Source: Bacteroidota bacterium (lineage in GTDB: Bacteria; Bacteroidota; Bacteroidia; B-17B0; Aurantibacillaceae). Taken from it: a stretch of DNA of 64,000 bases. The notes under the pieces are model-generated. The model saw only the letters and a program-made list of their open reading frames with translations, was not told where the DNA came from and did no database searches. Positions 44,242-49,760 of this stretch are shown piece after piece. Location: positions 1 to 64,000 of the forward strand of contig JAFDXR010000021.1 in the NCBI GenBank assembly GCA_018267825.1, in the 5' to 3' direction. Every line of letters starts with the position of its first letter. The first letter of the stretch is position 1. A program made the translations under genes and the position numbers.

Positions 44242-44751
44242 ATGGCAGAGAACGACGATTTTTTTGAACCCAACATTGATCCGAAACAACTTTTTGATGA
44301 CAAAAAGTTCAATACTATCATTGTAAGTAAAGACGGGCTTTCCAAAAAGGACAGTGAGATGGCCGATTTCCTGGATATTGTGATTTCTACGGAATCGACC
44401 CGCGAAGAAAAGGATGAAGCCCTGAAGGTTATTAAGGAAAAGGATGCCCGAAAACTATTGATCGACAGTATTCTGAAAGCCAAAAAGAATATTCACAAAG
44501 CGGCACTCATTGCAGCCTGCTGGGAATCGGGGCTTGATTTTTCGACACACTATCTTTTCTTTGCGGAACTGGTTACTTCGGCCGATTACGCCTGTGCCAT
44601 GGAAGCATACACGGTTATTGAGAATATGGAATCCAGCCCGGCGCCCGAAGAACTGGCAAAGGCCCTTCGTGTTCTTGAAGATGCAAAAGATAAAAATCAA
44701 CTTGTCATGGATGCGATTGACCTGACCCGTCAGAAATTAAATGCCGAATGA
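44242..44751 (+). CDS. Helical cytoplasmic protein of unknown function, HEAT-like
   Basis: The 169-residue protein is acidic, has no signal peptide or membrane segment, and is predicted to be nearly all helix with a HEAT-like pattern of paired helices (about 45-165). I do not recognise a family. Its TGA and the next ATG are almost adjacent (1-base gap), so it is coupled to the PD40/SPOR gene. It follows moxR with a 58-bp gap. It might assist either, but that is only a guess from position. Confidence 0.75.
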   Translation: MAENDDFFEPNIDPKQLFDDKKFNTIIVSKDGLSKKDSEMADFLDIVISTESTREEKDEALKVIKEKDARKLLIDSILKAKKNIHKAALIAACWESGLDFSTHYLFFAELVTSADYACAMEAYTVIENMESSPAPEELAKALRVLEDAKDKNQLVMDAIDLTRQKLNAE

Positions 44752-44752
44752 T

Positions 44753-46840
44753 ATGAAACAGAAACCACTACTCCCTTTCATTCTGCTCTGCTTCCTTTTT
44801 CAATCTGTCACTGCCCAGATTACCAATACCCGTAAATGGCGGAAAACCGAAAACGATTCGATGCAGGCCGCTTTCCTGATGTTTGATGAGCAACGCTTTG
44901 CGATGGCATTACCTATTTACCAGGACCTGTTTTTACATCATCCCAAAGAAGAATATCTTAAGTATTGCTATGGTAAATGTGCCCTGTACCGCAGCGATAA
45001 GCATGATACGGCGCTCGTATTACTATCGGAGATTTACGAGAAAAACAAAAAAGCAGAAAACATTGAATACGATCTGGCAAGGGCTATGCATTATAATTAC
45101 AAGTTTGACGAAGCTATTGCCCTGCTCGATAAGTTCATTGCCAGAAAAAAAATTGATCCTGAAATCCGTTCGGCTGCCGGACAGCTGCGGCATTACTGCC
45201 TGAGCGGGAAAGAACTCTATAGCAAGCCAACAGGGGCCAATATCACCAATATCGGGAATGTGATCAATACAGAGAATGATGAGTATGTTCCTGTTATTTC
45301 AGCCGATGAATCTGTGATGATTTTTACATATCGCGGGAAAGAAAGCACGGGTGGTTTACAGAATGATTTTATGCAACCGGATCCGCATGGCAGCTATTTT
45401 GAAGATGTATTCCAGTCGCTGAAAGAAAATGAAACGTGGACGAAACCAACAGGTATTAAATCGATCAATACCAATGAGCATGATGCTGCCATTGCCATGA
45501 GTTCAGATGGTCAGCAGTTGTTTATTTACAAAGACAATGGCGATGACCACGGCGATATTTATGTGAGCACACTTATTGGCAATGACTGGAGCGCTCCAGT
45601 GAAACTGAAAGGCCTTGTGAATTCATACTCCTGGGAAGGAAGCTGCTCTCTGACGGCCGACGGGCGTTATCTTTATTTTTCGAGTGAACGCGGGGGCGGA
45701 TATGGTGGAAAGGATATTTACCGGGCCACCTTGCTAGCCGACAGTACCTGGGGAAATATTGTGAACCTGGGCGACTCGATCAACACGCCTTTTGATGATG
45801 ATGCACCTTATATGCATCCTGACGGCATTACGCTGTTTTATTCTTCTAAAGGGAAAAACAGCATGGGCGGCTATGATATTTTCCAGGCCAAAATGAATGT
45901 TTTTGATTCTACTTTCAGTCAGCCTGTAAACCTGGGCTACCCGATCAATACACCCGATGATGATATTTATTATGTGTTGTCGGCCGATGGTAAACGCGGC
46001 TATTATGCGAGCGGGAAAAAAGGGGGATTCGGGCTTAAGGATATTTACCTGGTTGACCCGGGCTATGTGGGTAAAAAACCGGCTGCGTTTCTGGTAAAAG
46101 GAAAAATAACAGAAAACAGCAATGCTGCTGAGGCGGCAATACATGTTGAGATCACCAACAAGAACAATAAATCATTCGGCACGTATCATTCCAATGCAGG
46201 CAACGGAAATTACCTGATAAGCCTGCCTGCCGAAGGCGAATATAAAATAACGTATCAATACAAAACATACAGTACCCGCACCCTGACGGTATCAACGATA
46301 GGCTTGTCGGATTTTACGGAGAAAATTTTTAATGTTGATTTTTCAGCACAGGTCGATACAGCCAAACCTGTTGTGGTGGCGGAGCCTGTGAAAAAGGACA
46401 CGGTGGTAGCTGTTGTAAAAACACCCACACTGGCCGTTGTGAAACATACGGAACCTGTGAAAACCGAGCCGGTAAAGGAGACAACACCACGAGAGTTTGT
46501 ACCGAACAATGTGTTCCAGCAGAAGATCATGGATTATGCAAAGAAATATGGAACGATCAGTGCCGAGGGGCTTATTTTTAAGGTACAGATTGCGGCTTAT
46601 AAATATCCTAAGAATTATACGTATGCCCACCTGAAAGGCCTGGGTAATGTGGAGAACCTGCTGCTGGATGATGGTATTACAAGGATTACAATCGGTGGCA
46701 GTTTCAATACGCTGGGTGAGGCTTTTGAGCATAACAAAAAAGTGGTATGGGCCGGGCAGAAAGATGCTTTCGTGACAGCTCTGTACAAAGGCAAGCGCGT
46801 GTACCTGGAACAGCTGGAGGAAATGGGCATTTTTAAATAG
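44753..46840 (+). CDS. TPR / PD40 propeller protein with C-terminal SPOR domain
   Basis: The protein of about 695 residues has a signal peptide (ending SVTAQ), short TPRs (about 30-160), a PD40 propeller (about 170-440), a carboxypeptidase-regulatory-like domain (about 450-535), a Pro/Thr/Val-rich linker and a SPOR domain (about 610-695; FKVQIAAYKYPKNY and GRVYL-like end). SPOR binds denuded peptidoglycan. The propeller closely resembles that of the PorE-like protein at 17452, including the block GYPINTPDDDI, but the peptidoglycan anchor differs. An earlier in-frame ATG exists at 44741, but the ATG at 44753 starts the basic n-region. Confidence 0.82.
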   Translation: MKQKPLLPFILLCFLFQSVTAQITNTRKWRKTENDSMQAAFLMFDEQRFAMALPIYQDLFLHHPKEEYLKYCYGKCALYRSDKHDTALVLLSEIYEKNKKAENIEYDLARAMHYNYKFDEAIALLDKFIARKKIDPEIRSAAGQLRHYCLSGKELYSKPTGANITNIGNVINTENDEYVPVISADESVMIFTYRGKESTGGLQNDFMQPDPHGSYFEDVFQSLKENETWTKPTGIKSINTNEHDAAIAMSSDGQQLFIYKDNGDDHGDIYVSTLIGNDWSAPVKLKGLVNSYSWEGSCSLTADGRYLYFSSERGGGYGGKDIYRATLLADSTWGNIVNLGDSINTPFDDDAPYMHPDGITLFYSSKGKNSMGGYDIFQAKMNVFDSTFSQPVNLGYPINTPDDDIYYVLSADGKRGYYASGKKGGFGLKDIYLVDPGYVGKKPAAFLVKGKITENSNAAEAAIHVEITNKNNKSFGTYHSNAGNGNYLISLPAEGEYKITYQYKTYSTRTLTVSTIGLSDFTEKIFNVDFSAQVDTAKPVVVAEPVKKDTVVAVVKTPTLAVVKHTEPVKTEPVKETTPREFVPNNVFQQKIMDYAKKYGTISAEGLIFKVQIAAYKYPKNYTYAHLKGLGNVENLLLDDGITRITIGGSFNTLGEAFEHNKKVVWAGQKDAFVTALYKGKRVYLEQLEEMGIFK

Positions 46841-46861
46841 CCTTCTATTCAAAATCATTTT

Positions 46862-46889
46862 AAAAGCCGGTTGTTGACCGGCTTTTTTT
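46862..46889 (+). terminator. Rho-independent terminator after the PD40/SPOR gene
   Basis: aaaagccggt (46862-46871) pairs with accggctttt (46877-46886) around a 5-base loop, with a T run to 46889. Confidence 0.88.
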
Positions 46890-46920
46890 ATGGCATGTTG
46901 AGCCTTAGCCATAGGCTTGC

Positions 46921-47277
46921 ACAGGTTGCAAACGTTTGCACACAAGTTACAGATAGCAATACACAAGTTCACGAGAGCAGTGCACAACTTGCAAATGGTA
47001 ATACAGCAGTTGCAGATAGCAATACAGCAGTTGCAGATAGCAATACAGCAGTTGCAGATGGTAATACAGCAGTTGCAGATGGCAATACAGCAGTTGCAGA
47101 TGGCAATACAGCAGTTGCAGATGGCAATACAGCAGTTGCAGATGGTAATGCAGCAGTTGCAGATGGTAATGCAGCAGTTGCAGTTGGCAATGCAGTAGTT
47201 GCAGTTGGCAATGCAGCAGTTGCAGATGGCAATGCAGGAGTTGCAGATGGCAATGCAGCAATTGCAGATAGCAATAC
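46921..47277. repeat. 21-bp tandem repeat (minisatellite), about 17 units
   Basis: The core unit is agcagttgcagatggcaatac. About 17 consecutive 21-base units fit 46921-47277, with a degraded 18th after that. Units from about 47005 to 47172 are almost identical, while the outer ones are increasingly altered, a pattern typical of slippage or unequal exchange. Because 21 is a multiple of three, the array stays open in at least four frames (for example AVADGNT repeats on the plus strand), but no frame has a convincing start. One such frame also runs antisense into gldG. It fills most of the 480-bp convergent gap between the PD40/SPOR gene and gldG. Confidence 0.9.
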
Positions 47278-47320
47278 AGCAGTTGCGGAAGCTGTGCTGT
47301 GTTTTAAAAGGAGAAGGTAT

Positions 47321-49018
47321 TTATTTGGTATACCGGCGCTTACGGATATAAAACTGGATAAGACCGGCAATAATCACAATACCGAGTGGGTACCCGATAT
47401 TGATGATTTTCCAGGTGGAAGCCTGCTGATTTACTTTTTTCTTATCCAGCAGGCGCAGTTTCACCTCGCGTGAACGCAGCTGTAGTAAGCCTTCATCGTC
47501 GAGCAGGTAATTCATACAGTTGAGCAGGAACGATTTGTTGGCAAAGGTCTGCTTCATATAAATATCATAGCCCAAAGGATAAACCATCCCGGTGGCACGC
47601 TGGTAGTCGTTTTTTGCTATATCGCCATCAGATACCACGATCATGCGGGTGGGTTTGCTTTTTTCTTTGAAGGCAATGGCCGAATCATTCATAATTACCG
47701 ATGTCATCCGGTTTTTATACACCGATTCAAAACTTCCTTCGAGCAGGCAGGCCACATTCTGGTAGGAGTTACGGAACTGTTCTTCTTTCGGCTGAAAATT
47801 CACCATGGCCATGGCCACACGGGCCGGGGTTGGTTGTGTTTTGGTATAGCGTGAGGTGCGCAGTAAAATGGTTTTCTTTACATTGCGCGCAGAAACCGTA
47901 TCGAGGGTTCCGGCAAATTCGAGCTTGATGAGATCGAGGTTTTTTACAATGGGGTGGTTCAGGTCAGGCAGAATCAGCGGGTAATATAACCACGGGAACA
48001 TTCTGAAATTCGGCTGGCCTTTTTTAAATCCAACGTTTACAGGAACGCTGGCGCATTGCATGTCCTGCACAAGTACGGGGTTGAGCCGGACGCCGTATTT
48101 AAAAAGAATGTCGTCGAGGTTCAGTTCATTTTTAAAGCCCAGTGTATAGCCTCTCAAACGGAAGGTATCCATATTGGTGTACACGGGGTCAATGAGCCAC
48201 AGCGCTTTCCCTCCACGCATAATAAACTGGTCGATGATGAACTTATCCTTTTCATCGTACATTGAATCGGGCTGGGCAATCACAATGGCATCGGCATTTT
48301 TGAGGGCGTACAGTTTATGGTTGATGTCCACCAGTCTTACATTATAATACTCCGACAGGGAACGCATGAAATCGGCACCGTGAATGGTATCGAGTTCACC
48401 ATGTCCCTGAACAAATAATACCTCAGGCTTTTTGCGGTTTTTCAATTTACGGATGGCATTGGTAAGCGAGTACTCCATTTCCTGGATGGAGTTGTTGATG
48501 CTTTGTTCCTGGGCAAATCCTTCCTGGCGTTTATAGATCTGCCAAACGCCCTCGTTGCTTCTGTATGTAACCAGTGCGCCCGGCCATACAAGAGCTTCCG
48601 AGGTTTTCTCGGTATTACGTTCTACCACCTGCTCGGGGATGATGCCTTTGTCGTACAGTTGTTTTTCAATTTTGTTAACCTCTTCTTTATTGGGGTTATC
48701 ATTGATATTTACAAACTCATATTCAATCTGGTCGTTTGAGTAGGCTCTGAATTCATCGAGTATCTCGCGGGTTTCGTTTTCGAGGCGGGTAAAATTCGGG
48801 TTAATGTCGCCCTGGAGGTAGATTTTCAGGTAAACCACATCATCGAGTTCCTTGAGCAGTTTAATGGTTGAGGGCGATAAGGTGTAACGCTTTTCGGTTG
48901 TCAGGTCGAAGCGATTGAAATAGAAAGAACATACAAAATTCACAAGCAGGAGAATAGCCAGGAGAATCACCAGCATGGTGATGTCTTTTCGCTTTCTTAT
49001 GGATGTTGTTGTCGACAT
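47321..49018 (-). CDS. gldG: Gliding motility ABC transporter component GldG
   Basis: The protein of about 565 residues has an N-terminal membrane helix (about 15-36), a large extracytoplasmic domain (about 40-530; RYTLSPSTIKLLKELDD and PEVLFVQGHGELD) and a C-terminal helix followed by a basic tail. This matches GldG (ABC_transp_aux/DUF4350-like). GldFG, with the ATPase GldA, form a transporter needed for gliding in some flavobacteria but not all gliders. The frame opens at a TTG at 49045, but the ATG at 49018 lies 1 base after the gldF stop and is preferred. No gldA is in the window. Confidence 0.92.
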   Translation of the reverse strand: MSTTTSIRKRKDITMLVILLAILLLVNFVCSFYFNRFDLTTEKRYTLSPSTIKLLKELDDVVYLKIYLQGDINPNFTRLENETREILDEFRAYSNDQIEYEFVNINDNPNKEEVNKIEKQLYDKGIIPEQVVERNTEKTSEALVWPGALVTYRSNEGVWQIYKRQEGFAQEQSINNSIQEMEYSLTNAIRKLKNRKKPEVLFVQGHGELDTIHGADFMRSLSEYYNVRLVDINHKLYALKNADAIVIAQPDSMYDEKDKFIIDQFIMRGGKALWLIDPVYTNMDTFRLRGYTLGFKNELNLDDILFKYGVRLNPVLVQDMQCASVPVNVGFKKGQPNFRMFPWLYYPLILPDLNHPIVKNLDLIKLEFAGTLDTVSARNVKKTILLRTSRYTKTQPTPARVAMAMVNFQPKEEQFRNSYQNVACLLEGSFESVYKNRMTSVIMNDSAIAFKEKSKPTRMIVVSDGDIAKNDYQRATGMVYPLGYDIYMKQTFANKSFLLNCMNYLLDDEGLLQLRSREVKLRLLDKKKVNQQASTWKIINIGYPLGIVIIAGLIQFYIRKRRYTK

Positions 49019-49019
49019 A

Positions 49020-49760
49020 TTACCACTTACGGCTTTCAAGCACAAGCTTGCTGAGCAGGTTAAATATTACAATAAGGCTTACAAAATAAATAAGGTCGCG
49101 GGTATCAATTACTCCACGGCTCATGCTTATGTAATGGTCGTTCATGCCGAGTCCTTTTACAAAAGCATCGTATTTTCCGAAAAGGCCGGCCATGCCAATA
49201 AGATCGAAACCTACATACATGAAGAAACACAGGAGCAGGGCCATGATGAAGGCAATGACCTGGTTTTCTGAAATAGAAGAAGCAAATACACCTACCGACA
49301 CGAAACCGGCACCAAGAAATAATAAGCCGATATAGGATCCCCACATGCCTCCGGTATCGATGTTTCCTTTGGGGTAACCGAGCTGGTATACGGAATAGAA
49401 ATAAATGAGTGTGGGCAGTAATGAGATGAGTACCAGTACAAATCCTGCCAGGTATTTGGCCATCACGATCTGCCACTCGGTAAGCGGGCGGGTCAGCAAT
49501 AGTTCGATGGTTCCTGTTTTCTTTTCTTCGGAAAAGGTACGCATGGTAATGGCCGGTATAAGGAAGAGGTATACCCAGGGTGCAATGATGAACAGCGGGT
49601 CTATATTGGCGAAACCACTTTCAAGCACATTGGCACCGGAACTTTCGTTGGGCACGAGCCACATGAAAATACCGATCACCGACAGGAAAACGCCAATGGC
49701 AATATACCCGATCAGGGAGCTTAAAAAACTACGTATTTCCTTTACAAACAGTGTAAACAT
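49020..49760 (-). CDS. gldF: Gliding motility ABC transporter permease GldF
   Basis: The 246-residue membrane protein has six predicted helices and the ABC-2 permease motifs of GldF, such as MRTFSEEKKTGTIELLLTRPLTEWQIV (positions about 74-100). It should pair with GldG and an ATPase elsewhere. It is transcribed just ahead of gldG with essentially no gap. Upstream a 77-bp gap separates it from kdsC. Confidence 0.93.
   Translation of the reverse strand: MFTLFVKEIRSFLSSLIGYIAIGVFLSVIGIFMWLVPNESSGANVLESGFANIDPLFIIAPWVYLFLIPAITMRTFSEEKKTGTIELLLTRPLTEWQIVMAKYLAGFVLVLISLLPTLIYFYSVYQLGYPKGNIDTGGMWGSYIGLLFLGAGFVSVGVFASSISENQVIAFIMALLLCFFMYVGFDLIGMAGLFGKYDAFVKGLGMNDHYISMSRGVIDTRDLIYFVSLIVIFNLLSKLVLESRKW

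Follow-up and report, generated by a model that had tools for sequence, protein, structure and literature searches.

The tandem repeats described so far that come closest to the one reported here are of three kinds. Subirana and Messeguer (2019, PMC6749651) define satellites and minisatellites of prokaryotes by a unit of 10-200 bases that is repeated in tandem four times or more; the same source includes short arrays of unique sequence confined to a single locus, and repeats with a unit length divisible by three are often regarded there as coding. BrickBuilt of Porphyromonas gingivalis (PMC4596501), a minisatellite-MITE, is an intergenic tandem repeat of a Bacteroidetes host with a 23-base unit, which is dispersed 19 times and carries a leader, a tail and inverted-repeat ends. 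The VNTR loci of MLVA typing are also tandem arrays of near-identical copies.

The window, that is, the whole analysed stretch of 64,000 nucleotides from a Bacteroidota bacterium of the Aurantibacillaceae (contig JAFDXR010000021.1, positions 1 to 64,000), contains a tandem array at positions 46989-47286, for which TRF gave a period of 21 bases, 14.2 copies, 93% matches, 0% indels and a score of 463. In detail, the core of the array is formed by 14 copies of TTGCAGATGGCAATACAGCAG (46989-47282), each with 0-3 differences from this consensus. Three eroded copies precede the core in the same phase (46926-46988), those beginning at 46926, 46947 and 46968 showing 9, 4 and 10 differences, respectively. 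They very probably belong to the array, since the 21-mers of the window differ from the consensus at 15.7 positions on average and only 0.9% of them have 10 differences or fewer. The right edge is abrupt. A six-base beginning of another, broken copy is found at 47283-47288, and the 21 bases from 47283 onward match the consensus no better than background, with differences at 14 of 21 positions. An earlier sequence-only reading had described about 17 copies, near-identical in the core and decayed at both flanks, in a gap between convergent genes. The number of copies, the uniformity of the core and the convergent position are all borne out, but the decay applies to the left side only.

Core and eroded copies together occupy 363 of the 480 bases of the gap (46841-47320). 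With a 21-base unit and 14 core copies, against the four or more required, the array is a minisatellite in the sense of PMC6749651, and it is internally regular by the TRF values for matches and indels. It resembles the single-locus satellites in being short, of unique sequence and restricted to one locus, but it differs in that its multiple-of-three unit comes without a sign of coding. With BrickBuilt it shares the intergenic position, a similar unit length and the Bacteroidetes host. On the contrary, it is present in one place only, and in place of BrickBuilt-type leader, tail and inverted-repeat ends there is just an AT-rich pair of 11-base arms (91%) around the self-complementary TTTTAAAA. 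A gross assembly artefact is unlikely, judging from contig and repeat length: the array is located within a contig of 181,684 bases, and no exact repeat inside it exceeds 62 bases, a length that ordinary short reads can span.

The distribution of the unit was examined from the genome itself to the whole phylum. In the same genome, a 401-base stretch spanning the array has one matching place, a 33-mer with up to three mismatches has 11 matches, all of them inside the array, and the unit taken alone, again allowing three mismatches, is found in the 14 core copies and once more as a lone match on contig C32. Recurrence of the unit elsewhere in the genome, a check proposed with the sequence-only reading, thus produced no second array. 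A 30-mer with up to three mismatches was found in the own genome only, both among 87 genomes of the family (86 of 86 others without it) and among 395 of the phylum (394 of 394 others without it). Exact scans of the IMG/VR collection and of the GTDB contigs showed no match to the array, and neither did blastn searches against 72,556 plasmid and 50,697 phage records. Very near relatives may be missing from these collections.

The gene preceding the array encodes a TPR/PD40 outer-membrane-type protein (44741-46840, plus strand), with Pfam PD40 as its family and matches to the NCBIfam profiles PorE and CHU_0125 below their cut-offs. The convergent gene that follows is gldG (47321-49045, minus strand), which scores 617 bits with TIGR03521, the cut-off being 390, and gldF lies behind it according to the NCBIfam profile search. 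The stops of the two convergent genes, at 46840 and 47321, delimit the 480-base gap. After the upstream gene, a perfect 10-base inverted repeat followed by a T-run (46862-46891, plus strand) forms a hairpin with the appearance of an intrinsic terminator, even if the consensus terminator scan omits it.

None of the relatives examined showed these two genes joined in this way, and for this reason the gap between them is probably of recent origin in the present lineage. A gldG match was obtained in 59 genomes and loci were given for 30 of them, the own genome included; in the 29 others, all from the family, neither the PD40 gene nor a 21-base array was found within the 331 to 1,497 bases downstream of gldG. 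For the PD40 gene, 30 loci were fetched, the own included, and 20 relatives of the gene were examined; neither gldG nor a 21-base array occurred downstream in any of them. In many relatives, a further open frame of the same orientation comes after gldG. The GC skew of contig C13 in 10-kb steps is locally positive at the step of the array (0.067) among mostly negative steps; such a value alone marks neither an origin nor a terminus of replication, and both were discarded.

The copies carry a record of how the array may have grown. Among the 14 core copies, neighbours show a mean of 1.46 differences, and the mean over all pairs is 2.15 (permutation P 0.003); when all 17 copies are considered the values are 2.94 and 4.13, respectively (permutation P 0.0004). 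Identical copies adjoin each other, as in the case of 47010 and 47031, of 47073, 47094 and 47115, and of 47136 and 47157. Similarity between neighbours and adjoining identical copies are the mark of local duplication, either by slippage or by unequal exchange, and the pattern suggests this origin here, with slippage as a putative mechanism. One 21-base stretch between the PD40 gene and gldG was probably duplicated in tandem and then expanded to about 17 copies through replication slippage or unequal exchange. In the middle and on the right, the copies would have stayed similar through recent rounds of duplication, and the oldest copies, those on the left, would have eroded. The array would persist because its position is 3′ of both genes and past the terminator-like hairpin, where extra DNA is expected to do little harm.

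The array is most probably a lineage-specific, neutral and non-coding minisatellite, generated by local duplication and without a function of its own, and we infer both its neutrality and a variability in copy number. Among the three earlier suggestions, that is, a VNTR, a protein-binding or condensation site and a nascent repeat-protein gene, the VNTR-type repeat fits best, the variation in copy number being presumed. The occurrence of other tandem arrays in the genome agrees with a neutral minisatellite. A TRF survey that covered 18% of the own genome (861,684 bases) gave 8 non-overlapping arrays, the present one included, and 3 arrays came from 400,000 bases of ten relatives; the count took in arrays of at least 3 copies and a period of 7 or more and, where rows overlapped, the higher-scoring one. 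Two features speak against a neutral minisatellite. The first is that no other array among the 8 reaches as many copies, and that a location in a convergent gap was assigned to none of the remaining seven. The second feature is the 21-base period, which corresponds to about two turns of DNA and would equally suit a phased binding array. The array is notable within its own genome, yet it is of a known kind. It matters little beyond this genome, but should it vary in copy number, it could be used to tell strains apart. Short tandem arrays with 20- and 24-base units were also observed at L059 (5771-5847 and 6327-6451), where they flank one 130 aa gene.

A host DNA-binding protein could cover each 21-base unit of a helically phased array and thereby fold or silence the region. 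The period of two turns would place all copies on the same face of the DNA, and TRF found no indels between the core copies, both of which are consistent with such a role. However, the own genome has no second array, the array is absent from the 86 other genomes of the family and the 394 others of the phylum, and its eroded copies share no conserved core. The candidate binding or condensation site therefore stands without recurrence, without a conserved core and without conservation in relatives, and this role is improbable. A narrower form of it, a young and lineage-specific phased binding array that would have become fixed at the recent junction of the PD40 gene and gldG, is more doubtful still. 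Separately from this, the outermost copy of the array carries the perfect 14-base palindrome TGCAAACGTTTGCA (46927-46940), which we take to resemble the operators of the LacI family; as an operator-like candidate it was rejected, being just one among the 10 perfect 14-base palindromes of the window.

An action as RNA is very unlikely. Transcripts reading through from gldG or from the PD40 gene would gain a repeated 3′ tail, which could affect their ends or their stability. In its favor, the consensus scan listed no terminator-like site for gldG in the stretch that leads from its stop to the hairpin (46862-46891). On the other hand, the array folds no better than shuffled sequences on either strand (z of -0.99 and 0.03), and no Rfam family was matched at cut-off.

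The several open frames of the array had suggested a nascent repeat-protein gene, for instance in the TAVADGN or the QLQMAIQ frame. That at least four frames stay open is true of the 14-copy core, in which four of the six are free of stops, but only two of the six remain so across all 17 copies. Several frames are open because the length of the unit is divisible by three: when random 21-mers of the same composition are repeated, 4.29 of the six frames are open on average and 79% of them keep at least four. Open frames through the array are expected by chance and are not evidence of a gene. A 200-codon frame spans the array, but it begins within the hairpin and continues antisense into gldG, and no promoter of the form TTG-N17-23-TAnnTTTG starts within 46601-49299. 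The core copies hold 8 distinct changes from the consensus, with which an excess of synonymous changes, the trace of codon-level constraint, was absent in all six frames (P 0.11 to 0.98), a comparison of low power at this number. The QLQMAIQ frame has weak coiled-coil-like Pfam matches, all those listed being below cut-off; among the matches listed for the four translated frames no Pfam family reaches its curated cut-off, and the longest frame through the array matches no NCBIfam family at cut-off. With no synonymous excess in any frame and no Pfam family at cut-off in the four that were translated, the suggestion of a gene lacks positive evidence, and a nascent gene is hardly credible. The array is rather an example of how a unit divisible by three makes multiple frames look open without coding, and such frames can mislead gene finders into false repeat proteins.

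Equally hard to credit is a minisatellite borne by a small transposable element in the manner of BrickBuilt, for which the 9-base direct repeat TTTTAAAAG flanking the array (46858-46866 and 47302-47310) would speak, but dispersed copies are absent from the own genome, terminal inverted repeats are lacking beyond the arms around TTTTAAAA, and the direct repeat is a weak lead of little weight, since a shared repeat of this length is found in 1.6% of composition-matched pairs and its left copy overlaps the hairpin.

A dispersed family of hairpins with the core GGTGTTATCACC, of which the window has no copy, is more interesting than the 21-base array and deserves more attention. The core occurs in 61 exact copies in the own genome (G000), against 0 for a control pattern, for instance at L187 (151-689), L182, L190, L155 (8490-8960) and L066 (480-607). 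In Rfam the hairpin gave a single match, to a microRNA family and below cut-off, and a literal literature search for the core found no mention of such repeats in the matching titles and abstracts. Elsewhere, G004 has 30 copies, G020 has 11 and G026 has 8, and the remainder of the 41 family genomes searched have 0-4 each. Among 48 distinct copies that were fetched, 39 have five or more additional pairs beyond the core when G-T pairs are counted, and the arms change on both sides (CCTGTT/AACAGG, CTTGTT/AACAAG, TTGCA/TGCAA and CATGCA/TGCATG). The hairpin often follows GCCC and is often found in clusters. It is also carried by the tandem arrays of L066 (337-691) and L155 (8479-9051), the units of which are about 116 and 152 bases, respectively.
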